Source of the DNA: a virus
Length of the DNA: 57,089 nucleotides
Strand: one strand, 5' to 3'
IMG/VR virus record: IMGVR_UViG_3300023084_002319
Location: 1 to 57,089 of that record
Shown here piece by piece: positions 5,916 to 51,252 of the stretch (the first letter of the stretch is position 1; every line of letters starts with the position of its first letter). Both the position numbers and the translations under genes were made by a program. A model generated the notes under the pieces. The model saw only the letters and a list, made by a program, of their open reading frames with translations. It was not told where the DNA came from and searched no databases.

Positions 5916-6581
5916 TTACAAACCTCTAATGTCCTCTTGACCGTTTACACATACCATTAAGTGAATACGTGGTGTATCTCCGTCATTATATGCGGCGTGT
6001 GGCAACCCTTGGTTTAAGAAATAGGTGCTTCCATCTGCTTCCATTCTAAAAGTTTCAACTTCTTTTGCACCTTTTTGTCTTGTAGTAAAATAACTTTTGT
6101 CATTAGTTACTAGTGGAATATGATAACGCATAGAAAATGTAGTATCATAATCCATGTGCTCGCTAATACTTCCTCCTGGATCCATAACACGAATATTACA
6201 TCTAGATACTTGTCCTTTGAATGATTTTAGTACCTCTTCAATGTATGTGCCTTTTGCCCAATCTGCTATTTTAGTATATTTTCTTTCATCCCAACGTGGA
6301 TCTTTTTTAACTTCTGCAATGTTTTTCATGACACCGTTATCTTCTGGTTCAAAAGATTCATCAAACTCTGTTACACTGTATAAGTTATAGTTTCCGTCGC
6401 TATATGTGCTATATCCTCTATCACATTGACTTACAATAAAATCTCTTCCAGTTCCTTTTTTAAGTTCGTCAAAGTTATTTTGGAATACTTCTAAAATTTT
6501 ATCAATGTCAAACTTGTATGTATCCGGAAGTTTTAAAAAACCAGGTAGCTGATGGCGTCTTAATAGTTTTTCTTTTAACAT
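5916..6581 (-). CDS. Aspartyl/asparaginyl β-hydroxylase-like 2OG/Fe(II) oxygenase
   Basis: This 221-residue protein carries the complete facial triad and co-substrate residue of the double-stranded β-helix oxygenases: H142-x-D144 (SEHMDYD), distal H195 (GLPHAAYN) and R205 (TPRIHL). The motif spacing and the PGGSISEH stretch resemble the aspartyl β-hydroxylase group, which hydroxylates amino-acid side chains using 2-oxoglutarate and O2. All metal ligands are present, so an active enzyme is likely. It is followed 4 bp later by the B12-type radical SAM gene. The substrate is unknown. Confidence 0.8.
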   Translation of the reverse strand: MLKEKLLRRHQLPGFLKLPDTYKFDIDKILEVFQNNFDELKKGTGRDFIVSQCDRGYSTYSDGNYNLYSVTEFDESFEPEDNGVMKNIAEVKKDPRWDERKYTKIADWAKGTYIEEVLKSFKGQVSRCNIRVMDPGGSISEHMDYDTTFSMRYHIPLVTNDKSYFTTRQKGAKEVETFRMEADGSTYFLNQGLPHAAYNDGDTPRIHLMVCVNGQEDIRGL

Positions 6582-28424: not shown

Positions 28425-28436
28425 TATTTATGTAAA

Positions 28437-28444
28437 GATAAATA
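28437..28444 (+). promoter_or_regulatory. T4-late-like promoter (GATAAATA) before the fibre gene
   Basis: GATAAATA matches 7 of 8 bases of the T4 late promoter TATAAATA. It is followed by a leader with the ribosome-binding site AAGGAG (28451-28456), six bases before the ATG at 28463. It lies between two divergent genes 74 bp apart. Confidence 0.55.
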
Positions 28445-32753: not shown

Positions 32754-32779
32754 ATTGGTATTTAGTCAATAAGTACAGT
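32754..32779. promoter_or_regulatory. Divergent T4-late-like promoter pair, 26 bp
   Basis: The 26 bp gap carries ACTAAATA on the minus strand (32759-32766, 5 bp from the ATG at 32753) and AATAAGTA on the plus strand (32768-32775, 4 bp from the ATG at 32780). The plus side ends in ATAAGTACAGTATG, also found at 35241-35254. Confidence 0.5.
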
Positions 32780-35223: not shown

Positions 35224-35251
35224 ATGGTATTTATATACCTATAAGTACAGT
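35224..35251. promoter_or_regulatory. Symmetric divergent T4-late-like promoter, 28 bp
   Basis: The entire 28 bp gap is organised as 4-8-4-8-4: the minus ATG (35223), 4 bp, TATAAATA on the minus strand (35228-35235), 4 bp, TATAAGTA on the plus strand (35240-35247), 4 bp, and the plus ATG (35252). The minus-strand octamer is an exact T4 late consensus. No room is left for a ribosome-binding site that is not also part of the promoter. Confidence 0.6.
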
Positions 35252-35929
35252 ATGATAGATGTTGATCCAAAGTATAAAAAGATAGGCATAAGCATCAGTG
35301 GCGGAGCAGACAGTGCATTACTTGCTTGGATGATTTGCAAACAAAGCAGAGCACAAATGCATTTTGTTTATCAAATCCGCATGTGGAAGACTAGACCGTG
35401 GCAAGAATACTATGCAGATAGAGTTATACGTTGGTTTAGATACAACTTTCCGCATGAGTTTGTAGTACACAAGAACTTTGTGCCGCCTGAAATGGAAGAG
35501 CCACACACAGATTATATCACAGACGAATACGGCCAACAAAAACCAGGCAACAGAATCATACTGCGAGCACACAATGAGTACATTGCACACACTCAAAAAC
35601 TAGATGCATGGTATGCAGGTGTTACACTAAACCCACCTGTGACACTAGAAGGAGAACTAGAAGACAGAAACACACCTAGTTATGAGAAACATAAAGTTAT
35701 ACACGGTGTAAATGTGCATCATCCTTTTGTGAATCATGCCAAAGATTGGGTGATGAGACAGTACTTGGACAACAACTTGCACGAACTGTTGAGACTTACT
35801 CGCAGTTGTGAAGGCGAGTTCGAAGGCATTGATTATACCAACTATCGCTATGGTGAAGATGTATACGAATGCGGCGAGTGTTTTTGGTGTAGAGAAAGAA
35901 AATGGGGCTTGGATAATGCATTCCAGTAA
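35252..35929 (+). CDS. QueC-like PP-loop ATPase (fourth copy)
   Basis: The start is set at 35252, right after the promoter motif; the longer frame from 35096 lies inside the divergent oxygenase. The 225-residue protein has SGGADS at 16-21 and the C-terminal set TRSC, then ECGECFWC, like the trio at 8365-10687. It is more divergent from the trio than they are from each other. It is followed by a radical SAM gene that overlaps by 14 bp, so QueC-like plus radical SAM is repeated at two loci. Confidence 0.8.
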   Translation: MIDVDPKYKKIGISISGGADSALLAWMICKQSRAQMHFVYQIRMWKTRPWQEYYADRVIRWFRYNFPHEFVVHKNFVPPEMEEPHTDYITDEYGQQKPGNRIILRAHNEYIAHTQKLDAWYAGVTLNPPVTLEGELEDRNTPSYEKHKVIHGVNVHHPFVNHAKDWVMRQYLDNNLHELLRLTRSCEGEFEGIDYTNYRYGEDVYECGECFWCRERKWGLDNAFQ

Positions 35930-37166
35930 AACATTTTGTATGCATCCTTTCACAGGACTTGCAACAAGAGAAGACGGTGCTATCAAAGTGTGCTGTCGCA
36001 GTCAACCTATTGGTTGGATACAGAACGAAACACTGGAGCAAGCATGGAACAACGATGCTATGCGCAGTGTAAGAAAGCAAGTTCTCAACAATGAGATACC
36101 AGATGTATGCGTACCTTGCTTTGATTTAGAAGCACAAGGCGTAGAAAGTTTAAGACAAAGACATATTCGAGATAGTTTTCCTGATGCTAGAATAAACCTG
36201 TACCCAAATGCATTGGATAAACTTAACGACGACTATACTATGCCATTTGAGTTTCCTACTATTGAGATAAAAATCAATAACTTGTGCAATCTCAAGTGCA
36301 GAATGTGCAATCCACTGGACAGTACACAATGGAAAGATTGGGAACAAGTAGAACAGTTTTATGCAGAAGAAGGCAACTACCTAGTAGATGCTGTGCGCAA
36401 ACTAGGACTAACACGAGCACCATACATTGGTCTGTTTGAAGACAGTGCAGAGTTTTGGAGCAACCTTGAAAAACTGTTACCATATTTCCGCAGAGTAGAG
36501 TTTGCTGGCGGGGAGCCACTGATGGATCCTAATCATTACAAGATATTAGACTTATTAGCAACACACGGTGAGAACATAGAACTAAAGTATGCTACAAACG
36601 GTACAGTAACGGGTATAAAGGGTGGAAGGACAATACACGACTACTGGCCCAAGTTTAAAAACATAGTCGTAAATGTAAGCATAGACGGTCTACACGATGT
36701 GTATGAATACATTAGAGGAAATGGTGTGTTTAGTGAAGTAGAAGAAAATATCAAAATCTTCAAGAGCTTTCCTAATGTTAAATATGTTGTAGGTGCTTGT
36801 ACTGTGCAAGCAGGCAATGTCATGCAACTGCCCGATATTATTGACTACTTTTTAAACACCATGGGTATTGTGTTTTATTCACACAGAGTAAACTATCCAA
36901 ATGTGTTAAGTGCGCAATGTTTGCCTCTGGAATACAAGCAAGTTGTTGTTGACCAATTAACCACAATGAAAGAAATAGTGCCAAAGTATCCTATTATGAG
37001 TGTGGATGATAGATTATTGCCAATAACACTACAACAAATACAGGATAATATCAACTTCTTAATGGCTAGAGACTTGAGCGACAAATGGCCACAAACACTG
37101 GAGTTCAATCACAGACTAGATGCAAGTAGGAATCAAAGAAAGTTTGAGGAAGTATGTTTAGGGTAG
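35916..37166 (+). CDS. N-terminal-twitch radical SAM protein
   Basis: The ATG at 35916 is preferred over 35808 because the N-terminus (MHSSKTFCMHPF) then aligns with its relatives and the overlap is 14 bp. The 416-residue protein has FCMHPF, VCC and CVPC as the N-terminal auxiliary cysteines, a core of NNLCNLKCRMCNPLDS and FAGGEPLMDPNHY. It forms a unit with the two GW-C radical SAM genes that follow, all overlapping by 10-13 bp. Confidence 0.9.
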   Translation: MHSSKTFCMHPFTGLATREDGAIKVCCRSQPIGWIQNETLEQAWNNDAMRSVRKQVLNNEIPDVCVPCFDLEAQGVESLRQRHIRDSFPDARINLYPNALDKLNDDYTMPFEFPTIEIKINNLCNLKCRMCNPLDSTQWKDWEQVEQFYAEEGNYLVDAVRKLGLTRAPYIGLFEDSAEFWSNLEKLLPYFRRVEFAGGEPLMDPNHYKILDLLATHGENIELKYATNGTVTGIKGGRTIHDYWPKFKNIVVNVSIDGLHDVYEYIRGNGVFSEVEENIKIFKSFPNVKYVVGACTVQAGNVMQLPDIIDYFLNTMGIVFYSHRVNYPNVLSAQCLPLEYKQVVVDQLTTMKEIVPKYPIMSVDDRLLPITLQQIQDNINFLMARDLSDKWPQTLEFNHRLDASRNQRKFEEVCLG

Positions 37167-38050
37167 AAAATCGCTGGCCACATTATGCAGACAGTGTGAA
37201 AATAGAATGGAATCTAGGTAAACGCTGTAATCTAGATTGCACATATTGTCCTCCTGAAATACACGACTTGATAAGTCCACACACAAATGCAGGCAAACTA
37301 TTCGACACTGTTGACGAGATAAGCAAAATACCAAATGCTAGAATCAGCTTCACAGGTGGAGAACCAACTGTGCATCCTGCTTTTGAAGATTTACTAGAGT
37401 ATGCAAGACCCAAGATCAAATGGTTAAGTGTTACAACCAATGGCACAAGGACTACAGAGTTTTATGAACGCATACCTGTAAACTATATTGTGTTCAGTTT
37501 ACACTTTGAGGATCCTCAGTGGAGTAAAAGATTATACAATATTATGAACTTTGCAACTGCAACAGAAAGTTTGAAGTTTCCAAAGGATTATCATATTGCA
37601 CTAATGGCACATCAGGATCATATGAGTGATGTCAAAAAAGCAGCAGCATATCTAACAGGACACGAAATACCATACACAGTTAGAAGAATAAGATGGACAG
37701 AAAAGCACGATTGGTTTGACGATTTAAAATACAATCAAAATGACTTGGATTGGATAATGCGCAACACTGCAACTGCTCAACCCAATACACTGATAGACCA
37801 ACACGAACTAAAGCACGCCAACGATGTAATAAAAGAACATCTAAATCAGTTCGAAGGATGGAACTGTATGGCAGGTATAGAAAGCCTAATGATAAACTGG
37901 GACGGTGAAGTACACAGAGCCACTTGTAGAGTAGGTGGAAGTTTGGGCAATATATACAATAACACATTTAAACTACCAGAGGAGCCTGTTGTTTGCACAC
38001 GCAAGTGGTGTACTTGTGCCGCAGACATTAATATAACAAAATGGAAGTAG
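37154..38050 (+). CDS. Radical SAM protein with C-terminal SPASM-like cysteines (GW-C group)
   Basis: The 298-residue protein has GKRCNLDCTYCPPE (CxxxCxxC), TGGEPTVHP, then FEGWNC, WDGEVHRATCRVGGSLGNI and CTRKWCTCAAD. It is closest in layout to 17056-17952, including GVGGSLGNI/RVGGSLGNI. It shares a 13 bp overlap with the twitch gene and a 10 bp overlap with the next radical SAM gene, an arrangement parallel to 17056-19318 on the other strand. Confidence 0.92.
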   Translation: MFRVENRWPHYADSVKIEWNLGKRCNLDCTYCPPEIHDLISPHTNAGKLFDTVDEISKIPNARISFTGGEPTVHPAFEDLLEYARPKIKWLSVTTNGTRTTEFYERIPVNYIVFSLHFEDPQWSKRLYNIMNFATATESLKFPKDYHIALMAHQDHMSDVKKAAAYLTGHEIPYTVRRIRWTEKHDWFDDLKYNQNDLDWIMRNTATAQPNTLIDQHELKHANDVIKEHLNQFEGWNCMAGIESLMINWDGEVHRATCRVGGSLGNIYNNTFKLPEEPVVCTRKWCTCAADINITKWK

Positions 38051-39102
38051 AAGCAATAAAACTAGCCAAACCCGAACCCATGACAGTTACATGGGATATA
38101 GGGCGCCGTTGCAACTTTGACTGTACTTACTGCGAAAGCAATAGACACAACACATACAGTGCACCTACAAGCTGGGAAGAACTGTTGCACACATATGAGT
38201 TTGTTAAAAACTACACAACGATGTACAACCAACCAAATGCAAACATCAACTTTACGGGCGGTGAACCAACTGTCAATCCTAGATTTTGGGACTTTGTACA
38301 ACACATAAAAGATACCAGTGACTTTACAGTAGGACTTACCAGTAATGGCACATGGCCAGAAAAACACATAGACGCTATCAAACAAAATATTGTGGGTGTT
38401 ACATTGAGTTATCATGCAGAAGCAAAACACTTCAGCAAACAAAGAACCATAGACAATGCTCGAGTGTTAAAAGACAACGGTGTATGGCTAACAGTTAATG
38501 TAATGATGCACACAGACCACTGGGCAGAATGTGTAGAAACAGTTGACATTTTGCGAGAATATGGTATAATAGTATTTCCTACTATTATTGGAGACGGTAA
38601 CTTGGGCACAACAGAGTGGTTCAAAGACGGCGAAGGTGTATTGCGTAGAACAAGTCATCCTTACACGCAAGAACAGCAAGCATGGTTTTTTGACTACCAC
38701 GGCATTGATGCAGACACACAGGAACAAATATTAAGTGGCAATCAAATGCCACGAGGTTGTTGTGGTAACAGAGACATACTGGGCAAGTGCAACAACTGTT
38801 GGAGCAAGATCAGTGCTGTAAACACAAACTTCAAAGGTTGGTATTGCAGTGTAAACAAACACTTTTTACACATAGACCAACACACACAAAAAGTGTATCA
38901 TCATCAGACTTGCAAAGCCAAGTTTGAAGGCAGAGGTGCAATAGGCAGTTTACGCAACACAGATGGTATACTCAACTATGTGCTGGAAAACCAAGATAGA
39001 ACTATTGTGTGTCCAAACAGTAGGTGCGGATGTGGCATGTGTGTGCCCAAAGCACAATCAAGGAGCGAATATGAAAGCATTACCAGACCTACCACTGTAT
39101 GA
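38041..39102 (+). CDS. Radical SAM protein with C-terminal SPASM-like cysteines (GW-C group)
   Basis: GRRCNFDCTYCESN and TGGEPTVNP identify the core; FKGWYC, HQTC, and CPNSRCGCGMCVPKAQ form the C-terminal set. It belongs with 12775-13938 (CGCGLCSPKAL) and 41849-42871 (CWCGVCAPKAR). A middle insert, CCGNRDILGKCNNC, adds further cysteines, as in those relatives. Its 353 residues overlap the oxygenase downstream by 32 bp. Confidence 0.92.
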   Translation: MEVEAIKLAKPEPMTVTWDIGRRCNFDCTYCESNRHNTYSAPTSWEELLHTYEFVKNYTTMYNQPNANINFTGGEPTVNPRFWDFVQHIKDTSDFTVGLTSNGTWPEKHIDAIKQNIVGVTLSYHAEAKHFSKQRTIDNARVLKDNGVWLTVNVMMHTDHWAECVETVDILREYGIIVFPTIIGDGNLGTTEWFKDGEGVLRRTSHPYTQEQQAWFFDYHGIDADTQEQILSGNQMPRGCCGNRDILGKCNNCWSKISAVNTNFKGWYCSVNKHFLHIDQHTQKVYHHQTCKAKFEGRGAIGSLRNTDGILNYVLENQDRTIVCPNSRCGCGMCVPKAQSRSEYESITRPTTV

Positions 39103-39760
39103 TCAAGTGACTTGGATATTCCAAGAAAGCAACTTTGATTACATAGAACTGGATTATCCTATGCTGAATATCAACCAGTTCAAAGCAGAAGCAGAACTTG
39201 CAGATGATTATTATGTAGATCACAGAGATGAAAGCACAGGCGAAGGCTCACACCAAGGGTGGCAGGCTTGCACACTGTACGGCATAGACACAGACAAAAC
39301 CAATCACTGGTGGGTGTACGATTACGAACTGCCTCCTACACACGATTGGACAGAACTTGGCAACTTGTGTCAGTACATCAAAAACTTTTGGTTGCAGTTT
39401 CCTGCAGAGTTTATATACAGAAGTAGATTTATGAAACTTGGTGCAGGTGGTATGATAGACACACACAACGACAATCCAGGTGACATAGATTTAAGTGCAT
39501 GGCACACACTGCAAATACCAATCAACACTGCAATCAATCATCCTGTAGGATGTGAGATGCGTGTAGAAAACACTGTTGTTCCATTTGCTGACGGAAAACA
39601 GTTTTTGGTAAACATTTTCAAAGATCACAATGTGCATAATCCAACTGACACAGATAGAATACACAATATCACACATGTTATTCCTGGCAGTATGCACACA
39701 CTATTTGCAAATCTTGTTGTAAGGAGTTATAAGAAGCAATATGATAAAGTATCCAGGTAA
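39071..39760 (+). CDS. 2OG/Fe(II) oxygenase-like protein
   Basis: I start it at 39071, where AGGAG lies just upstream; the in-frame ATG at 38963 is inside the previous gene. The 229-residue protein has H132-x-D134 (DTHNDNPGD) and a distal His in FKDHNVHNP (H186 or H189), and R196 (DTDRIHN). The ligand set is therefore nearly complete. It follows three radical SAM genes and precedes an unknown gene with a 20 bp overlap. Confidence 0.7.
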   Translation: MKALPDLPLYDQVTWIFQESNFDYIELDYPMLNINQFKAEAELADDYYVDHRDESTGEGSHQGWQACTLYGIDTDKTNHWWVYDYELPPTHDWTELGNLCQYIKNFWLQFPAEFIYRSRFMKLGAGGMIDTHNDNPGDIDLSAWHTLQIPINTAINHPVGCEMRVENTVVPFADGKQFLVNIFKDHNVHNPTDTDRIHNITHVIPGSMHTLFANLVVRSYKKQYDKVSR

Positions 39761-40829
39761 GTTTCACAGCAGAGAAGACTTTTGTGTTGTTATTGTAGAC
39801 GATACTCACAAGTACTCTGGCATTACAAAAGAATATGTTAAAAATCAAGCAGATTATACAATACAGAACTGTGTAGGTATGAACTTTGATGTGTATGTTA
39901 CAAGAGATGAAGAACATACACTTGCTCAGTTGGACTACGAAAAAGCTGTTGTTATAAGTGCTGGCACAGAGTTTTTACACGGCGAAGATTTTTTTGATTC
40001 AATAAAAGGTGATTATTATCTGCTAGGACACCTTTTAGACATGGGAGATGCATATTTTCATTTACATGAACAATGCTATGTCATTAATTTAAAAATGTTA
40101 GACACAGAAATCGGACAAACAGAACACTGTACATATAACAGACAAGTAATACCTGTAAAAAGTGACGAAAACATTCATGACGATTATACTCCTTTATGGA
40201 TAGACACTGGATATAAGTTTTATAATTATCGACACAAACTACATGGATGGAAAGTTATTAGCCATGGTATTAATAACGGACATAAGATGTATGCATTTAA
40301 CGAGAAACAACGTAACTCAAAAAACTACATTTATCCAAACGGCACTGGCATAGATTATTTGCATAAAAGATATCATTACTCTATTACAGATTTAGTTTAC
40401 AAAGAAAATACTGGTAGTGACAACTTACCAGACAGGGCAAGGAATTGTTTGGTTGCTGTTTTGCCTGCAAGCGGCAATATGTATGAGTACATAGGCAGAC
40501 CTGATACTCATTACAAGTTTTTTGATCATTCACCTAAAGCAATAGAATACATTAAAGAAAAAACAAGTCATTTGAGTGCAGAATATCACGTTATTGATGT
40601 TATAGCTAACACAGAAGACTTTATCGAAATGATAGGATTTAACGGAGGACTTACATATATCGAAATGAGTAATGTTTTTTGTTTCGAATGCACTACTCCA
40701 TTCTATAGCACAGAATATAGAAAACAAAAAGAACAGAAAATTATTGAGTTTGCAGATAATATTGGAGCAATGGTACACTTTGATCAACGAGCAGGAGATC
40801 TTAACTTGTTACCTTATTGGCACTACTAA
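39741..40829 (+). CDS. Unrecognised two-part protein (362 aa)
   Basis: I do not recognise this family. The first 200 residues contain VVIVDDTHKYSG, then FDVYVTRDEEHTLAQLDYEKAVVIS and YLLGHLLDMGDAY, which have a nucleotide-sugar-transferase feel but no clear DxD. The last 130 have a Rossmann-like run (CLVAVLPASGNMYEYIG, then FFDHSPKAIEYI, then LTYIEMSNVF), which could be a degenerate methyltransferase half. It is the last gene of the plus-strand QueC/radical SAM unit and converges on a radical SAM gene with a 29 bp overlap. Confidence 0.5.
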   Translation: MIKYPGKFHSREDFCVVIVDDTHKYSGITKEYVKNQADYTIQNCVGMNFDVYVTRDEEHTLAQLDYEKAVVISAGTEFLHGEDFFDSIKGDYYLLGHLLDMGDAYFHLHEQCYVINLKMLDTEIGQTEHCTYNRQVIPVKSDENIHDDYTPLWIDTGYKFYNYRHKLHGWKVISHGINNGHKMYAFNEKQRNSKNYIYPNGTGIDYLHKRYHYSITDLVYKENTGSDNLPDRARNCLVAVLPASGNMYEYIGRPDTHYKFFDHSPKAIEYIKEKTSHLSAEYHVIDVIANTEDFIEMIGFNGGLTYIEMSNVFCFECTTPFYSTEYRKQKEQKIIEFADNIGAMVHFDQRAGDLNLLPYWHY

Positions 40830-41862
40830 TTTGTTCACTTGGGGATACAAGTTTATCCCCACAAGTCCTAGCACAAGTATACAGTTTATTAATAGTCCAG
40901 TATTTTTGCCAAACGTTTTGATATTCTTTTCCGTTTACTATTTGTTTAATATCTTTTTCTAAAACATTTGTATTACCAAGATCTGCTAATAACTCCTTAT
41001 ACTGAGATTCAATATGTAATCGTATATCATCTAACTTAGGATTTTCATAAGGCTGATAAGGAATACTTGCCAAGAAACAACACGGAAAAAGGTTTTTATG
41101 GGCATCAATATAAACTTCTTTAGCATGTTTTGAATAACAAGAAATATTTGTATTGTCAACAAAATCTTGAATGTTGTTTATCTCATTGTCTGATAATTGA
41201 ATATTATTTGCCTGTGAGCTAGGATATAAAAAATATTGAAAACGTATTTTACTGTCAAATACTGCAAAACTATCATCGAAAGCAAACCTACTACTGTGCT
41301 TCAAATAAAAATCTGAAAATCCATATGCTTTACTAAGTTTTTTTGCTTCAGTAATCTGATGTTCGTTATGTTTAAATGCTAAGAAACTCCATATAGCGTT
41401 ACCCCCATTGAGCATAAAATGTTTTGCATGGGATAACACTCTATCATATGTTGTTCCTATTCTATACATACTGTGTGTATCGCTTAAACCATCTATGCTA
41501 AAGATAACTTTATGTTTTTTTGGTAAGCATGAAACTAAACTTTGCCACCAAGCTGGTGTATGCATACCTCCATTTGTGTGTATTTCCACACTTAGATTGT
41601 ATTCTTTAATATACTGCAATATTGGTAATATGTCTTTACATATCATTGGATCTCCAAAGTTACCACAAATATAAAAATGTTCTATTGAAGATATAATTTC
41701 TTTATGAAATACTTTTTTAAAATCGTGTATCGTCCAATCTGCTATGCTAATACGACTATTTTCCAATCCTCCATGCCAGTTGCGATCGCACATAGGACAC
41801 GATGCCTGGCATCGATTTGTAAGTTCTATATGTACAGTTTTTATTTCTTTAAATGGTATCAT
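40801..41862 (-). CDS. Radical SAM/SPASM-like protein with CGN-x-GDP motif
   Basis: The ATG at 41862 is chosen over 41898, since it leaves a 14 bp overlap instead of 50 and aligns with 22990-24078. The 353-residue protein has TNRCQASCPMCDRN, ICGNFGDP, SIDGLSDTHSMYR and FKHNEHQ, matching the CGN group. Unlike the two others it has no Lys-rich linker; the corresponding stretch is FDDSFAVFDSKIRF. The C-terminal cysteines include NLFPCCFLAS and CARTCG. Its stop overlaps the convergent gene by 29 bp. Confidence 0.88.
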   Translation of the reverse strand: MIPFKEIKTVHIELTNRCQASCPMCDRNWHGGLENSRISIADWTIHDFKKVFHKEIISSIEHFYICGNFGDPMICKDILPILQYIKEYNLSVEIHTNGGMHTPAWWQSLVSCLPKKHKVIFSIDGLSDTHSMYRIGTTYDRVLSHAKHFMLNGGNAIWSFLAFKHNEHQITEAKKLSKAYGFSDFYLKHSSRFAFDDSFAVFDSKIRFQYFLYPSSQANNIQLSDNEINNIQDFVDNTNISCYSKHAKEVYIDAHKNLFPCCFLASIPYQPYENPKLDDIRLHIESQYKELLADLGNTNVLEKDIKQIVNGKEYQNVWQKYWTINKLYTCARTCGDKLVSPSEQISSANKVTS

Positions 41863-42871
41863 ATAATGCTTTCGTCCTTGCTTTGGGTGCACATACACCG
41901 CACCAGCATGATTTCTTTTTACACACTATTGTGTCAGTGGTGCCTAGCCTGTCCAATATTTCTTTTGTGTTGTTAAGTGTACCAATAGGGCCTATACCAC
42001 CGTCCCAGTTCATTCTACAGTCTTTGTTGGTGTAAACCATTTTGCTGTGTTGTTGCACATATAAAAAATGTTTGTCTACACTACAATGCCACCCTTCAAA
42101 ACGATTTTCAACTTTGTCCACAGTGCATCCATCTGCACAAAGTTTTGCTCCACCGCAACAAGCTCTTTTGTCACTGGTGTTAAATCCACGAGTGATTATA
42201 GCCAACAATTTTTTGTTTAACTTGGTAGGAGATTCTCCACGCAGGTATTTTACTTGTTCAGCATTGTAGTTGAATCTAAAATCTAACCAATGATGATCTA
42301 TTTCTCTCAAGTGGTAAGGCACATTTGATTTTTTGCACCACTCAACCATAGCTACACATTTTTCCCAATGCTTTGGATGCATCATTATGTTGACTTGAAA
42401 CTGTTTGTTAGCAACTTTTAATCCCAATACATTGTGTTTGAAAATCTTTACCTGCTTTGGTTCTGTTTCGGCATGAAAGGTAACAGTGTAGTAATCAATG
42501 TACTGCATCATTCTATGCCACAGTTTCTTTCCTACAACACCGTTTGTGATAGTGCTCACATTTATATTTTTTCCTGTGTCTTTTATTCTGTAATGCAAGT
42601 GTTGAAAAACATTGAGTATACCAAGTTGAAAGAAACTTTCGCCGCCCTGTATATTGATACCTGCATACTGTTGATCTACAGGCTTTGTGTCTAATATTCT
42701 ACTGGTATATTCAACTATAAAATCAGATGTGGCCAAACAATCCTGCCAGTCAGGATGATCGGTTTTGTTATCATGGCCATCTCCACAGTACGAACAATCG
42801 AGATTACACTTGAGAGTAGTTTCCCATTGCACATCAAACATTTTAGGATTTACAGGTTTTAAAATGTCCAT
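41849..42871 (-). CDS. Radical SAM protein, GGES variant (GW-C group)
   Basis: C23-x3-C27-x2-C30 (LKCNLDCSYCGDG) marks the core and GGES (IQGGESFFQ) replaces GGEP. FEGWHC, NKDCRMNWDGGIGPIG and CKKKSCWCGVCAPKAR form the C-terminal set, as in 12775 and 38041. There is an extra cysteine cluster in the middle (ACCGGAKLCADGC). Length 340 residues. It overlaps the genes on both sides by 13-14 bp. Confidence 0.9.
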   Translation of the reverse strand: MDILKPVNPKMFDVQWETTLKCNLDCSYCGDGHDNKTDHPDWQDCLATSDFIVEYTSRILDTKPVDQQYAGINIQGGESFFQLGILNVFQHLHYRIKDTGKNINVSTITNGVVGKKLWHRMMQYIDYYTVTFHAETEPKQVKIFKHNVLGLKVANKQFQVNIMMHPKHWEKCVAMVEWCKKSNVPYHLREIDHHWLDFRFNYNAEQVKYLRGESPTKLNKKLLAIITRGFNTSDKRACCGGAKLCADGCTVDKVENRFEGWHCSVDKHFLYVQQHSKMVYTNKDCRMNWDGGIGPIGTLNNTKEILDRLGTTDTIVCKKKSCWCGVCAPKARTKALYDTI

Positions 42872-43788
42872 TTTGTTGCTCCCATTTCTCCACTACATCC
42901 ACAGTATGATTGCTCACATATCACAGGCTCTGTTCTTGCTGTAAACTTGTTTACAAAATCAGCATCATAAAAGTTACAATCGTATAAATGCTGTTGACAG
43001 TTTCCAGTTAACGCTCCGTCTCTAAATATTTTTAAAACATCTAATCCAAGATTACAATAAAATCCTACAAAGTTATTGTATCCATTTATGTGAAACCAGT
43101 TGTCGTTGTCAAGTTCTATAGTGTCTGTGTCTGTTTCGACTAATATTCGTGTTTGCGGCACTCGTGCAGCGTTTTTGTACCAATCAAGTTCTGGATACCT
43201 TTTAACACTATTGCTCAAGTATTCTTTTTGTGCTTCTGTGTATTCTGTAGGACCTATCACAGGCTTTGCTATAACTGTAAACGGATATTCACTATTTGTC
43301 AACTGATGTACTATATCAACACATTTGTCAAAACACAACGGATCCATCAACACATCTGCATTGCACTCTATATTGTGTTGATACAGTAAATCTAACAATG
43401 CTTTGCTATGCTCAACTTTGGTATATTCGTGATGTATGCTTACATTTACTATGTCAAAACAATCTATATGCCGTTTCCACCAACCGATACTTTTGCTGCC
43501 ATTGGTGCTTATTTGATAAACAACATCAAACTCTGCTTTGAGTTTGTGCATCACAGACGGTAAGCCTTTCCATATAGTAGGTTCGCCGCCGATGAAATAC
43601 AATATCACAGGTTTGTTGTAACTGTGTAACAAATGTCTTAAGTTGTTGTAAAAAAGTTCTTCATCTGGCCAAGGCATAGTACCGCTGTTACTGTCAGGAA
43701 AACAATAACTGCATTTGAAATTGCAGAGATTGCCCAACATTATTTCAATGCGTAATCTAGTGCTGTTGTTGGATATCGACTTTATCAT
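42859..43788 (-). CDS. Radical SAM protein with C-terminal SPASM-like cysteines (GW-C group)
   Basis: The 309-residue protein has GNLCNFKCSYCFPDSN, FIGGEPTIWKG, then a region with FVGFYCNLG, FRDGALTGNCQQH and CEQSYCGCSGE. The final GW-C motif is modified to GFYC, and the LGNI element is missing, so the auxiliary site may differ. It is followed by the GGES variant with a 13 bp overlap and preceded by an N-terminal-twitch gene with a 4 bp overlap. Confidence 0.88.
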   Translation of the reverse strand: MIKSISNNSTRLRIEIMLGNLCNFKCSYCFPDSNSGTMPWPDEELFYNNLRHLLHSYNKPVILYFIGGEPTIWKGLPSVMHKLKAEFDVVYQISTNGSKSIGWWKRHIDCFDIVNVSIHHEYTKVEHSKALLDLLYQHNIECNADVLMDPLCFDKCVDIVHQLTNSEYPFTVIAKPVIGPTEYTEAQKEYLSNSVKRYPELDWYKNAARVPQTRILVETDTDTIELDNDNWFHINGYNNFVGFYCNLGLDVLKIFRDGALTGNCQQHLYDCNFYDADFVNKFTARTEPVICEQSYCGCSGEMGATKWTF

Positions 43789-45167
43789 AACAAATGTGCA
43801 AGTTCAGGAAATACATCCCGTGCATTTACTCCTCTTATTGCATCTAGTTTGTTTACATACTCTTTGAAGCCTGGCAACAAATGACTGTTGTCCTGTGCAT
43901 CCATGTGATTTAGTATTGCTTCCCAACGGCGCCAACCATATGGATTCTGTTCCCAAAACACAGGATCCTTTGTGTAAAAGTCGTACAAGTAACTTTTGAA
44001 CTTGGCAAACAAATCTCTTATTTCTGCTTTGTCCTCTTTGGGCAATATTTGTATACTCATAAATGTTGGAATATACAGCAAATGCATGTTTATTAAGCCG
44101 CCGCCTGCTCTAACACCCCTAATCATTTCAGTGTTTACTTTGCTGAAGTTTTGTGTGTTTTTCCAATGTATAAAATCAGGCAAATGCTTGATATTGAATA
44201 TTTGTATAGCAGTGGCAATGCTTGGACGAATGTTGTCAGGTGTGCGATCCAACATGTGCAAGTTGCGTTCTACAGTTGCCCAATCTGTTGGGTACCTAAT
44301 GTAGTTGTTTCTAGGGCCAGCAGCATCAATACTTACACCCACTTTTACTAGATCAAAGTGTTTCCAAAGTTCGATAAGATCCTCGTCTACAAGAATACCG
44401 TTGGTGTTGTATCGCAATCTAATATGTGTATTATGCCCACTGCGTACTATTTCTTCAATAAACTTTTTGTGCTCTGCAATCATTAATGGCTCGCCACCTG
44501 CAAAGTACACTTCCTTCAAGTTGGGTATTTGCTTGTACAACTGTTCCCAGAATATTTCATTTTCATGCCACTTGTTGTTGAAAGCAGCTTTGTCCCATTG
44601 CATTTGTCGCTTTACTTCAGGATCTTCCAGTTGTGGTTCTAGCACTTTCCAGTCTTTTACCCACTTACTGCTGTCATGAGGTGAACACATTACACACTTG
44701 ATATTACATGTGTGTCCTAATCGCAAATCCAAGTATTGCAGTTCTTCTTTATAACTACCATCTTTGTCTGTTTCGTTGAGCAGTTCTTCTACATTGAGTC
44801 CACGCTCCATCCATGTTCCTGTTTCCCATAGGCGTTTGCTAACAACACCCTGCGACTCTTCGGCAAAGCACTTGGTACAACTTGCAGGCACTGCACCTTC
44901 CATCATGGTTGTGCGCACACTTTTCATGTAATCACTGTTCCACGCTTGCATAGGTGTGACAGTGTTGAAGTTGATAGGATCACCGTTTTCTTGTTTGACT
45001 AATCCTACTGTGTGATCCGATCCTGCACCACTAGCATTAGCACTGCAACACAATCTCATGTCTCCGTTGGGTCTTGTTGCCATGTGTATCCACGGCAATG
45101 CACAAAATGTTGGAGTGGTTTTTTCAGCAATAGTGTTTTGCACCATTGCAATCAAGTCTTTGTTCAT
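43785..45167 (-). CDS. N-terminal-twitch radical SAM protein
   Basis: FCALPW, CCSANASG and CTKCFAEES form the N-terminal set; the core is HTCNIKCVMCSPHDS and FAGGEPLMIAEHK. It is the closest relative of 19311-20720, sharing FCALPWIHM/LHL, the ASG/ASS segment, YIRYPTDW/QW and an acidic C-terminus (DVFPELAHLL against EVFPLLQEIV). Its 460 residues also match the layout of 17936-19318. It overlaps the next gene by 4 bp. Confidence 0.92.
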   Translation of the reverse strand: MNKDLIAMVQNTIAEKTTPTFCALPWIHMATRPNGDMRLCCSANASGAGSDHTVGLVKQENGDPINFNTVTPMQAWNSDYMKSVRTTMMEGAVPASCTKCFAEESQGVVSKRLWETGTWMERGLNVEELLNETDKDGSYKEELQYLDLRLGHTCNIKCVMCSPHDSSKWVKDWKVLEPQLEDPEVKRQMQWDKAAFNNKWHENEIFWEQLYKQIPNLKEVYFAGGEPLMIAEHKKFIEEIVRSGHNTHIRLRYNTNGILVDEDLIELWKHFDLVKVGVSIDAAGPRNNYIRYPTDWATVERNLHMLDRTPDNIRPSIATAIQIFNIKHLPDFIHWKNTQNFSKVNTEMIRGVRAGGGLINMHLLYIPTFMSIQILPKEDKAEIRDLFAKFKSYLYDFYTKDPVFWEQNPYGWRRWEAILNHMDAQDNSHLLPGFKEYVNKLDAIRGVNARDVFPELAHLL

Positions 45168-47778: not shown

Positions 47779-48843
47779 TTAACTTTTTAAAAACTCCATT
47801 AATGGCTCATAACTATTTACACATTCTAAATATGTTAAAAGCTGTTTGTGGTTATCAATATTTTCAATACAAAACTTTTCAAACCCTTCAGGAACAAACT
47901 TTTTTGTTTTTAAATGATCTAAAAAAACTTCAAAGTTGTATTCTGCTGCATCTTTTGTAAGTTTGTGTAACTCTTGTTTATCAATAAGACAAAAGTCATG
48001 TACTTGTTGAATAAACATTTCGCATCTTTTTTCGTCATCTTCTATTTTATCAAACTTATAGTCAATAACATTATCAAATAACTTAAAACCTATATTTTTT
48101 AAATATCTATGCGTGTAAGGAACACCCCAAACAATAAACGGACGAGTATGATAGATTGCCATATATGTTTTTTCTGTTAAAAACAGACAGTTTAGATTAC
48201 TTTCACTTATTATGCTAAAAACACTGTTCTTAAACTCTTTTGGAGGTACGAATATATCGCACATACCGTTGTCTTGTTTAAAATCGCTGTCAAACTCTAA
48301 GTTTTTAGGCTCCCAGTATTCAAAATCCCATAATGTATGATAATCTTCGTAATCAAACTCATGCCAACTAATATACCCGTAATCAAACAAACCTTTTCCA
48401 AAAAGTTTGTCAATGAACATACAGCGCCACCAATGGGGACGTCCATTCATTGATACAAAATGTTTCTTCAGAATATCTGCTTCAGGCTTCTGAGGATAAA
48501 TGCCAAACTTGCTTCTATACGCTATTCTATGTCCAAAATAATTAGGCCAATGCTTGATATTAAAATCTATATGCTGATATCTAGTATTAAGTTGTTTATC
48601 CATAACTGCACCATAATACGCATTTAATTTAATATTTTTCCTTTCGGCAAACTTTAAAGTTTCATCTACAGTGTCACGATCGCCGCCTAAAAGCACAGGT
48701 TCCCACTCTTCGGGTCCTACTATAGTTATTTCTTTGGTTCGAGGATGACGTAATGCTTTTTCGACAGGTTCTGGACCGTCAGGCCCCCAAGCATAAAACA
48801 CATATCTACCAGTATTGTCATGATGGTTCTCTAGTTCATACAT
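47779..48843 (-). CDS. Glycosyltransferase-like protein
   Basis: The start at 48843 is chosen over 48873, since the upstream ATG is inside the divergent gene. The C-terminal signature is FSIISESNLNCLFLTEK, then TRPFIVWG and LKNIGFKLF. The 354-residue protein is longer than its relative at 45760 in the N-terminal half, with RGPDGPEP-like turns (WGPDGPEPVEKA). It starts from the palindromic promoter shared with the DegT-like gene, 10 bp away. Confidence 0.7.
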   Translation of the reverse strand: MYELENHHDNTGRYVFYAWGPDGPEPVEKALRHPRTKEITIVGPEEWEPVLLGGDRDTVDETLKFAERKNIKLNAYYGAVMDKQLNTRYQHIDFNIKHWPNYFGHRIAYRSKFGIYPQKPEADILKKHFVSMNGRPHWWRCMFIDKLFGKGLFDYGYISWHEFDYEDYHTLWDFEYWEPKNLEFDSDFKQDNGMCDIFVPPKEFKNSVFSIISESNLNCLFLTEKTYMAIYHTRPFIVWGVPYTHRYLKNIGFKLFDNVIDYKFDKIEDDEKRCEMFIQQVHDFCLIDKQELHKLTKDAAEYNFEVFLDHLKTKKFVPEGFEKFCIENIDNHKQLLTYLECVNSYEPLMEFLKS

Positions 48844-48856
48844 AAATATACTTATG
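48841..48856. promoter_or_regulatory. Quasi-palindromic divergent late-like promoter with both start codons inside
   Basis: CATAAATATACTTATG reads CATAAGTATATTTATG on the other strand. On each strand the octamer CATAAATA or CATAAGTA is followed by 5 bp and an ATG, and its CAT is the antisense of the other gene's ATG. Only 10 bp separate the genes at 48843 (-) and 48854 (+). Confidence 0.55.
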
Positions 48857-49453
48857 TTTGACATAGTTAACACATTTGAAAACAGAATAGCTGATTTTTT
48901 TGGTGCACCTTATGCAGTGAGCACAGATTGTTGTACACATGCTGTTGAACTATGTTTACGTTATAAACAAGTAAATCAAGCAAAATGTCCTAAAAATACT
49001 TACTTGAGCATTCCTATGACCTTTAGTAAACTTAATATAAAATGGAACTTTGCAAAAGATAGATGGAAAGAATATTATTATATTACTGATGAAATAATAG
49101 ATGCTGCAACTATGTGGCGACAGTATAGTTATATACCGGGTACCTTTATGTGTATCAGCTTTCAATACAAAAAACATTTGAGTTTAGGCAGAGGTGGTGT
49201 AATATTATTAGACAATAAAGAGGATAGAGATGCTCTTATTAAACTAGGTTATGACGGGCGTCATAGAGATGCACCATGGGCTGAACAAGATATTTCAACT
49301 ATGGGATATCATTATTATATGACTCCAGAAACTGCACAACTAGGTTTAGATAAACTATCTGACGCAATAAGTACCTTACCAAAAATTTGGGGCACAGAAG
49401 ACTATCCAGATTTAACTAAACTCCATATCTTCAAAAACATAAATATTTCTTGA
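48854..49453 (+). CDS. Short DegT/DnrJ/EryC1/StrS-type PLP aminotransferase
   Basis: The order of the family is retained: NTFENRIADFFGAPYAVSTDCCTHAVEL at the N-terminus, IIDAATMW with the PLP-contacting Asp83, and FQYKKHLSLGRGGVILLD with Schiff-base Lys (106 or 107). At 199 residues it is only half the usual 370 residues and lacks the C-terminal domain. It may be a minimal form or rely on a partner. Family members aminate keto-sugars. Its 3' end overlaps the convergent SGNH-like gene by 42 bp. Confidence 0.75.
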   Translation: MFDIVNTFENRIADFFGAPYAVSTDCCTHAVELCLRYKQVNQAKCPKNTYLSIPMTFSKLNIKWNFAKDRWKEYYYITDEIIDAATMWRQYSYIPGTFMCISFQYKKHLSLGRGGVILLDNKEDRDALIKLGYDGRHRDAPWAEQDISTMGYHYYMTPETAQLGLDKLSDAISTLPKIWGTEDYPDLTKLHIFKNINIS

Positions 49454-50224
49454 ATACTTTTTAATATCTTGAAAATCATCACGTAAATAAAGATTGCGAT
49501 GTATAAAATCATATACTTTGTCTAAGTCTTCCTTAATCTTATTTTCTAATACAAAATCGACAATAAAATGTTGCATAAGTGTAAAACGATCTTCAGTTTT
49601 AGATCTTAACTCTAGTCCTAAACTTGGATAAATCCAATCTCTAACTTTTTGCAAATGACCTAGTATATCAGGATGACTATCTTGTAGTGTACCAAAAGGT
49701 TTATTAGTTTCAAACATATGCCAATCTATGTGAGGTATTTCTTTTGAATAAAAATCTTTAAGCAAGTTATAGTGTTCTGATTCGTCGTATATTAGTGCTG
49801 CTTCATTATTATATGGAGTAAAACTATGCCCTTGCCAAATAATATTATCCTTGTACAACTTATTAACTGTAATAATAGCAGTCATATTTTTTACAAGATC
49901 GTTTTGCATACTCCAGTGATTTTTGAGCCAACTACGGTTATCGTATCTACAACCAGCATTAAACACACTACCTTCTGCTTGCCAACGTCCGTCGATAAAT
50001 CTGTCTTCTCTACTAAAACTGGTCCATAAAATCATTATTTTGTCTTCGGGCTGAAACTTGTATTTTATATCTGCCTCGATAATCCTATGATGTATTCCAA
50101 CATTTCCTAAACCAGGCAATGCTAAATTGTAGTGTTCTGCTTCTTGATCATATGCAACAATGTTTGCCCAAGTTGGCCACATGTAGCTAGTAAAACTGCA
50201 ACCAAAAGTGAATAATCTACCCAT
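49412..50224 (-). CDS. SGNH-hydrolase-like protein
   Basis: LFTFGCSFTSYMWPTW (GCSFT at 8-12) is in the position of the GDSL nucleophile block, and NLALPGLGNVGIHHR resembles block II with Gly. IMILWTSFSREDRF follows as a third block. The 270-residue protein has no signal peptide. Ester or amide hydrolysis or acyl transfer on glycans is the family default. It is divergent from the amidinotransferase by 20 bp and has AAGGA before its ATG. Confidence 0.6.
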   Translation of the reverse strand: MGRLFTFGCSFTSYMWPTWANIVAYDQEAEHYNLALPGLGNVGIHHRIIEADIKYKFQPEDKIMILWTSFSREDRFIDGRWQAEGSVFNAGCRYDNRSWLKNHWSMQNDLVKNMTAIITVNKLYKDNIIWQGHSFTPYNNEAALIYDESEHYNLLKDFYSKEIPHIDWHMFETNKPFGTLQDSHPDILGHLQKVRDWIYPSLGLELRSKTEDRFTLMQHFIVDFVLENKIKEDLDKVYDFIHRNLYLRDDFQDIKKYSRNIYVFEDMEFS

Positions 50225-50232
50225 ATATAATC

Positions 50233-50240
50233 CTTAAATA
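50233..50240 (+). promoter_or_regulatory. Late-like octamer CTTAAATA before the amidinotransferase gene
   Basis: CTTAAATA matches the last six bases of TATAAATA and lies 4 bp (TAGT) before the ATG at 50245, the same spacing as in the 32780 and 35252 starts. Evidence is weaker than at those sites. Confidence 0.35.
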
Positions 50241-50244
50241 TAGT

Positions 50245-51252
50245 ATGAATATTTATAGCACTAATGAGTGGGATCCACTAAAGAAGGTTGTAGTTGGCGT
50301 AGCCGATTATTGCCGTATTCCCGAAATGGATATAAGTTTACGTTGTATCAACTATGCAGACAAAAAAGATGTAAGCGATATCAAGGCTGGTTTATATCCA
50401 GATCAAGTTGTAGAAGAAAGCAACGAAGATCTTGAAACGTTTGTAAAATTTTTAGAAGGTGAAGGCGTTGAAGTTGTAAGACCTAAACGTACACCAGATG
50501 TTGAATATTACAACTATTGCCCACGTGATACTGTATTTGTTCATGGCCAAAAACTACTTGCTGCCCCTATGAGTTTAACAGCAAGAACCAACGAGTTTCA
50601 TCACATGCTCCCTCACATAGCAGGTGTTAATATGTCTCATCGGATTGATCGAACTAACCTGTACGATGAAACTTGTGTAGGCGATCCTGATCGTCTTGCC
50701 CTCACTGAAGTAGCACCTTGTTTTGACGCTGCTAATGCTATACGTGCAAATGATGACATTTTGTACTTGGTCAGCAATAGTGGTAACAAAGCAGGTGCTG
50801 CATATTTACAAGATTTTATTAATAAACCAAGATACGATTTTATGGAACCAGGAGATGTACGTGTGCACAGACTTGAAAATGTGTATAGTTACATGCATAT
50901 AGATAGCACCGTTGCTTTCCTTCGTGAAGGACTGCTTTTAGCTAATCCAAGTCGTATTAAAGACAAAGATGTTTTACCTGCTCCTTTTAACGATTGGGAT
51001 ATTATTTGGGCACCAGACCCTGTTGATGCTGGACACTATCCAGGACTATGTAATAGTAGTATATGGACGTGGAATGTTAACTTGTTTAGTGTAAATCCAA
51101 ACTTGGTTGTATTAGAAGAACATCAAGAGCCAACTCGTAAAGCATTAGAAGCACATGGAATAGAATGTGCTATGCTACCATTGCGTCATGCTAGAACACT
51201 AGGTGGGTGTTTTCATTGTTGCACACTAGATCTTGTTCGTGAAGTCGGGTAA
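50245..51252 (+). CDS. Glycine amidinotransferase-like protein
   Basis: The 335-residue protein has the pentein fold motifs of amidinotransferases: YCPRDTVFVHG (the Asp of the active site), YMHIDSTVAFL (His and Asp), and GGCFHCCTLDL with the catalytic Cys most likely Cys325, ten residues from the C-terminus. The family transfers the amidino group of arginine to an amine; StrB-type enzymes do this on aminocyclitols, AGAT on glycine. Its neighbours here favour an amino-sugar or related amine acceptor, but that is inferred. It overlaps the convergent SGNH-like gene by 27 bp. Confidence 0.85.
   Translation: MNIYSTNEWDPLKKVVVGVADYCRIPEMDISLRCINYADKKDVSDIKAGLYPDQVVEESNEDLETFVKFLEGEGVEVVRPKRTPDVEYYNYCPRDTVFVHGQKLLAAPMSLTARTNEFHHMLPHIAGVNMSHRIDRTNLYDETCVGDPDRLALTEVAPCFDAANAIRANDDILYLVSNSGNKAGAAYLQDFINKPRYDFMEPGDVRVHRLENVYSYMHIDSTVAFLREGLLLANPSRIKDKDVLPAPFNDWDIIWAPDPVDAGHYPGLCNSSIWTWNVNLFSVNPNLVVLEEHQEPTRKALEAHGIECAMLPLRHARTLGGCFHCCTLDLVREVG

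Follow-up and report, generated by a model that had tools for sequence, protein, structure and literature searches.

A DegT-like aminotransferase gene and a glycosyltransferase-like gene diverge from a 16-bp element in the viral DNA analysed in this study (57,089 nucleotides, hereafter the window). The features of this locus and of the divergent pairs used for comparison are listed in Table 1. For the glycosyltransferase-like protein, neither a cultured-phage relative nor a Pfam family was found. The original prediction had described a quasi-palindrome with two opposed start codons, each preceded at 5 bp by a late-like octamer that overlaps the start codon of the other gene. Indeed, the element is present where it had been placed and is palindromic at 14 of 16 positions. 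Its start codons (ATG at 48854-48856 on the plus strand and at 48843-48841 on the minus strand) lie 10 bp apart, both octamers stop 5 bp short of their own ATG, and each octamer begins with three bases (CAT) that are complementary to the start codon of the other gene. Together, CATAAATA on the plus strand and CATAAGTA on the minus strand tile the 16 bp exactly. Another CATAAATA octamer (window 49438-49445, plus strand) lies at the end of the DegT-like gene, facing a convergent minus-strand gene, and no plus-strand gene starts within about 800 bp of it.

Table 1. Coordinates of the genes, octamers and divergent pairs in the window.
Feature	Position	Strand	Details
DegT/DnrJ/EryC1/StrS aminotransferase-like gene, 199 aa	48854..49453	+	Pfam PF01041, E 1.1e-13
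Glycosyltransferase-like gene, 354 aa	47779..48843	-	So named in the original prediction; no Pfam match
Interlocked 16-mer CATAAATATACTTATG	48841-48856		Two start codons and two late-type octamers
Late-type octamer CATAAATA of the DegT-like gene	48841..48848	+	Predicted +1 at 48854
Late-type octamer CATAAGTA of the glycosyltransferase-like gene	48849..48856	-	A to G at -8; predicted +1 at 48843
Gap between both start codons, 10 bp	48844..48853	.	Non-coding if both starts are used
Second divergent leaderless-type pair	32759..32775		ACTAAATA (-) for ATG 32753; AATAAGTA (+) for ATG 32780
Third divergent leaderless-type pair	35228..35247		TATAAATA (-) for ATG 35223; TATAAGTA (+) for ATG 35252
Mixed pair	50233..50257		For ATG 50245, CTTAAATA (+) at a gap of 4 bp; it overlaps the Shine-Dalgarno sequence (AAGGA) of the minus-strand gene
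Ordinary leadered back-to-back late pair	28425..28444		CATAAATA (-) and GATAAATA (+), between two operons; conventional contrast

The T4 late promoter consists of an octamer at -13 to -6 without a -35 element (PMC2988020), and the cyanophage late promoter has the form NATAAATA (PMC2984593). The plus-strand octamer fits NATAAATA and the minus-strand octamer deviates from it once, by the G at -8; symmetric core promoter elements are present on both strands. By T4 numbering, a gap of 5 bp makes the A of each ATG the +1, and both mRNAs are predicted to be leaderless, although these 5' ends are predicted from the spacing only. No Shine-Dalgarno sequence lies between the octamer and either ATG, as spacers of 4-5 nt are too short for it. 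A palindrome between divergent genes could also be an operator for a dimeric regulator of both. However, the near-palindrome already follows from the tiling of two NATAAATA-type octamers in which the CAT of each is the opposite start codon, and no separate element is needed. In addition, other divergent pairs (32759-32775 and 35228-35247 in the window, 18916/18943 in the pelagiphage HTVC008M) keep octamers and gaps without the palindrome, and identical 16-mers are found between unrelated genes in other phages. An operator is therefore very improbable.

The divergent DegT/glycosyltransferase junction was observed in four lineages, namely the window, L004/L005, L426-L429 and L425. The glycosyltransferase-like gene stays beside the DegT-like gene in relatives in which it is 72% (L004/L005) and 36% (L426-L429) identical to that of the window. 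In DegT orientation, the 16-mer of L004/L005 is identical to CATAAATATACTTATG, L426-L429 carry CATAAGTATACTTATG and L425 carries CATAAGTATAATTATG. Fourteen of 16 columns are invariant over the four lineages, and variation occurs solely at octamer position 6 (-8), once per side: the DegT-side octamer is unchanged in L004 and shows one change in L425/L426, and the minus-strand octamer has G in the window and T in L425. The flank within the glycosyltransferase-like gene is only 35% identical and that within the DegT-like gene 78%, compared with a mean pairwise identity of 88% over the four lineages in the inner 10 bp, and conservation drops abruptly at the left edge of the DegT octamer. The alignment of relatives that had been proposed with the original prediction, and in which a lack of conservation would have refuted it, therefore shows the arrangement to be kept. 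The start codons and the neighbouring, well-conserved DegT codons account for part of the conservation of the 16 bp.

The interlocked 16-mer also recurs elsewhere. Viral contigs were scanned for CATAARTATAYTTATG, which gave at least 91 distinct sites. Among the matches listed, ORFs of at least 150 aa open from both ATGs at 6 of 91 sites, whereas a permuted palindrome gave 0 of 94; at a cut-off of 90 aa these numbers are 9 and 1. The gene pairs differ and comprise, besides DegT/glycosyltransferase, a methyltransferase-like gene with a 367-aa partner (L223) and a radical SAM pair (L166), and a small basic protein is encoded beside differing partners in L204, L211 and L238. The palindrome is perfect in L166, L211, L228 and L238.

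The plus-strand ORF has no start codon earlier than 48854, and the minus-strand ORF of the window also harbors an in-frame ATG at 48864 and a GTG at 48873. Potentially, the DegT side alone is a leaderless late promoter, the minus-strand octamer is a by-product, and the minus-strand gene is expressed from ATG 48864 or by other transcription. This possibility gains support from that ATG, from the off-consensus base of CATAAGTA at -8, and from DegT relatives in G005 and G006 that retain the leaderless-type octamer without a glycosyltransferase-like neighbour. However, L004/L005 have ATT in place of the ATG at 48864, and the open frame of the minus-strand gene in L425 offers no start other than the interlocked ATG, so that the use of another start codon, which would have overturned the original prediction, did not come true. 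Furthermore, the five spacer bases of the minus-strand octamer are kept across lineages and are different where the neighbour differs, TAAGTA at a gap of 4-5 nt recurs before other starts (window 32780 on the plus, 22982 on the minus and 35252 on the plus strand, as well as in G005 and G017), and the 16-mers of L166 and L211/L238 carry the full consensus CATAAATA on both sides. Promoter activity on the DegT side only is thus unlikely, although the least unlikely of the alternatives considered.

Motif rarity was rejected as an argument, as CATAARTA (5 occurrences versus 11.4 expected) and near-matches of the 16-mer (5 versus 2.5) are not enriched in the window. ATAAATA is depleted in comparison with dinucleotide shuffles (10 versus 31.7); since the depletion is milder by a higher-order expectation (10 versus 19) and absent in G019, G007 and G012, it was used as background only. 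Significance comes from the position of the motif and not from its counts. In the window, TAAATA (P 9e-6) and TAAGTA (P 5e-5) are found 4-5 nt before ATG far above chance. When all 6-mers were compared without bias at every position upstream of start codons (window, G003, G005 and G006), TAAATA 4-5 nt before ATG was the top start-linked 6-mer, with 16-17 genes versus about 0.4 (0.38) expected, and outranked the Shine-Dalgarno words. The spacing is bimodal, with a 4-5 nt class, here called leaderless-type, an ordinary class at 16-30 nt and almost nothing between. An A at -12 is enriched in the leaderless-type class (19 of 36 versus a background of 20%, P 7e-6). P values are binomial with the genome-wide motif frequency and are not corrected for the kinship of orthologous genes, and contig genes are simple ORF calls made in this analysis. 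A coincidental placement of AT-rich sequence next to start codons would agree with motif counts that are not enriched by themselves, but in the face of the conservation in four lineages and of the genome-wide position statistics it is hardly credible.

The leaderless-type class is not restricted to the window. At a gap of 4-5 nt, TAAATA precedes 4 genes in the window (0.13 expected), 4 in G003, 4 in G005, 5 in G006 and 7 in G017 (0.17 expected). In HTVC008M, it precedes 13 genes versus 0.33 expected (P 7e-17), with a gap of exactly 5 nt in 11 cases, and in Rhizobium phage RHph_I1_18 4 genes versus 0.11, all at 5 nt. The highest numbers were observed in G022 and G024, two IMG/VR contigs with the interlocked 16-mer, in which 32 and 20 genes, respectively, have a gap of exactly 5 (P 3e-51 and 2e-28); both contigs encode a late sigma factor and a T4-type portal, and the 16-30 nt class is not enriched in G024. 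These T4-type contigs correspond to L483-L487 (G022) and L488-L492 (G024), and leaderless may be the default late class in G024. In further contigs that were checked (G021, G022, G024, G025 and G027), the leaderless-type class was enriched in all five. Most leaderless-type sites in the clade of the window have a gap of 4 and not 5, so that the A of the ATG is one base nearer than expected from T4 numbering. T4, S-PM2 and Syn9 have no gene at a gap of 4-5 nt, yet 31, 20 and 19 genes in the 16-30 nt class, and no such site was found in the sampled part of S-SCSM2R. In the jumbo portal relatives Atu_ph07, PA5oct and Phosso, the sampled parts show the leadered class, with a single leaderless-type site per phage, and leaderless spacing is thus not a general trait of jumbo phages.

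TAAATA near the start might alternatively be a signal for translation initiation, i.e., an AU-rich ribosome site instead of a promoter, as it occupies the position of the Shine-Dalgarno sequence, which the leaderless-type genes lack. However, the motif is also found 16-30 nt before genes that have a Shine-Dalgarno sequence, there likewise with a preference for A at -12, and a gap of 5 matches T4 late numbering. Moreover, the class sits mainly at divergent junctions, which require a promoter: in the clade of the window, 18 of 22 leaderless-type genes are at such junctions, compared with 28 of 186 other genes (P 3e-10). A purely translational role is thus quite improbable.

Back-to-back pairs that are not interlocked occur in the window (32753/32780 and 35223/35252), in G006 (2241/2280), in G017 (107108/107150) and in HTVC008M (18916/18943). 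The ATG at 35252 opens a 225-aa QueC-like ORF (MIDVDPKYKKIGISISGGADSA...). On the minus side of the mixed pair, ATAAATA lies within the first codons of the plus-strand gene (Met-Asn-Ile-Tyr), which would give a leadered minus-strand mRNA with its ATG at 50224; this arrangement is kept in G003, G005 and G006. In G019 (L104-L115, 240 kb), TATTTAT/ATTTAT is found about 5 nt before the ATG of roughly 30 of 233 genes, with A-runs near this signal, and this contig carries a T4-type capsid gene.

The window is a 57-kb fragment with many radical SAM and sugar-modification genes and a tail gene at its left end; a row of radical SAM domain genes at 35850-45167 lies beside QueC-like and sugar-modification genes. 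Its closest longer relative, G003, encodes a T4-type major capsid protein, a portal and a head protease. A gp55-type late sigma factor was identified in G003 and G004 (phrog_12791, E 5e-79 to 2e-81; 5.6e-79 in G003), and its gene adjoins gp47 and gp46, as in S-PM2. The 57-kb fragment itself contains no gp55 gene, and the presence of gp55 in this phage is therefore deduced from the closest relative. The most similar portals are those of jumbo T4-type phages, e.g., Sinorhizobium Phosso and Agrobacterium Atu_ph07. As the leaderless-type class is found in SAR11 and in Rhizobium phages, a connection with alphaproteobacterial hosts is suggested, though not demonstrated.

Gene starts annotated by the depositors coincide with leaderless-type sites in both cultivated phages, as far as sites were looked up: in HTVC008M at 6280, 7562, 11972, 16007(-), 18916(-), 18943, 19456, 31132 and 49760, and in RHph_I1_18 at 85354(-), 119569(-) and 9112(-). 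The pattern match at 36506 in HTVC008M has no annotated start. Among these sites are those of several T4-type late genes (gp25, gp2, gp4 and tape measure), with DNA end protector, head completion and baseplate wedge functions besides the tape measure. A gp25-like baseplate wedge gene has leaderless-type spacing in HTVC008M (31132), RHph_I1_18 (119569(-)), G003 (52479(-)) and G006 (53575(-), identified by sequence), and this spacing is thus common to distantly related T4-type phages. HTVC008M, an isolate with many leaderless-type late genes, also encodes a ribosomal protein bS21 (91237-91392). As a correlate of the leaderless class bS21 was rejected, since among the T4-type genomes tested it is present in HTVC008M only.

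gp55 recognises the late octamer at -13 to -6. We consider it probable that the 16-bp element serves a T4-type phage as a bidirectional late promoter, with outward-facing gp55-type octamers and leaderless DegT-like and glycosyltransferase-like mRNAs. This rests on the observed sequence, geometry, conservation and genome-wide enrichment of the spacing, and on the late sigma gene in the closest relative. Host RNA polymerase with the phage late sigma factor would recognise each octamer (NATAAATA class) at -13 to -6, and transcription would begin at the A of the respective ATG on each strand, giving two leaderless mRNAs. Both open complexes would occupy the same roughly 15 bp, so that polymerase could load in one direction at a time only. 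The start sites, the use of both octamers, leaderless translation and mutual exclusion are all inferred, as neither transcript ends nor proteins were measured. The 5-bp spacing represents a genome-wide leaderless-type class in these phages and not a single curiosity, but its usage is unproven. More broadly, we lean, if only slightly, towards the view that in a set of aquatic and alphaproteobacterial T4-type phages the late promoter was turned leaderless, in one lineage (G022/G024) apparently by default, and that promoter and start codon are merged so closely that the 16-bp form can serve two genes as a bidirectional either/or unit.

T4 late transcription is a textbook system, in which there is usually space between promoter and gene for a leader with a ribosome-binding site. 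If the leaderless class is real, it would be how structural genes are expressed in some phages that rank among the most abundant in the ocean, would link late transcription directly to 70S-type initiation on 5'-AUG mRNAs, and would help to place start codons. The interlocked form would be about the smallest bidirectional expression unit that can be written, with two promoters and two start codons in 16 bp. The prediction of late promoters by the cyanophage method failed in pelagimyophages, and leaderless spacing was not mentioned (PMC7029224); it is tempting to speculate that the leaderless class explains this failure. No description of leaderless T4-type late promoters was found in the literature, as far as open-licence papers are concerned. 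The claim is testable in the cultivated phages HTVC008M and RHph_I1_18.

The late promoters of T4 (TATAAATA; gp55/gp33/gp45) and cyanophages (NATAAATA) share with those described here the core octamer, the lack of a -35 element and a gp55-type sigma factor, and like these phages the window also has an ordinary leadered class (28425-28444). However, the octamers of T4, S-PM2, Syn9 and the sampled part of S-SCSM2R are located 16-30 nt before the ATG, never 4-5 nt, whereas here the predicted +1 is the A of the ATG and two octamers interlock. In the pelagimyophage HTVC008M, the late core precedes 13 genes by 4-5 nt and the divergent gp2 and gp4 have abutting octamers. In Alphaproteobacteria, leaderless mRNAs start at the A of the AUG, as predicted here, and 171 were mapped in Sinorhizobium meliloti; these belong to host genes and promoters, and T4-type late promoters were not described there (PMC3616915). 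Bidirectional promoters of E. coli, described by Warman, Grainger and colleagues, are also built on pseudo-symmetric DNA, on which polymerase bound in one orientation excludes the other, and 10 bp is among the common distances between divergent start sites (PMC12825309). However, the E. coli promoters share -10 elements of host promoters, whereas two complete late octamers stand side by side here, and the predicted starts, 11 bp apart, are both start codons.
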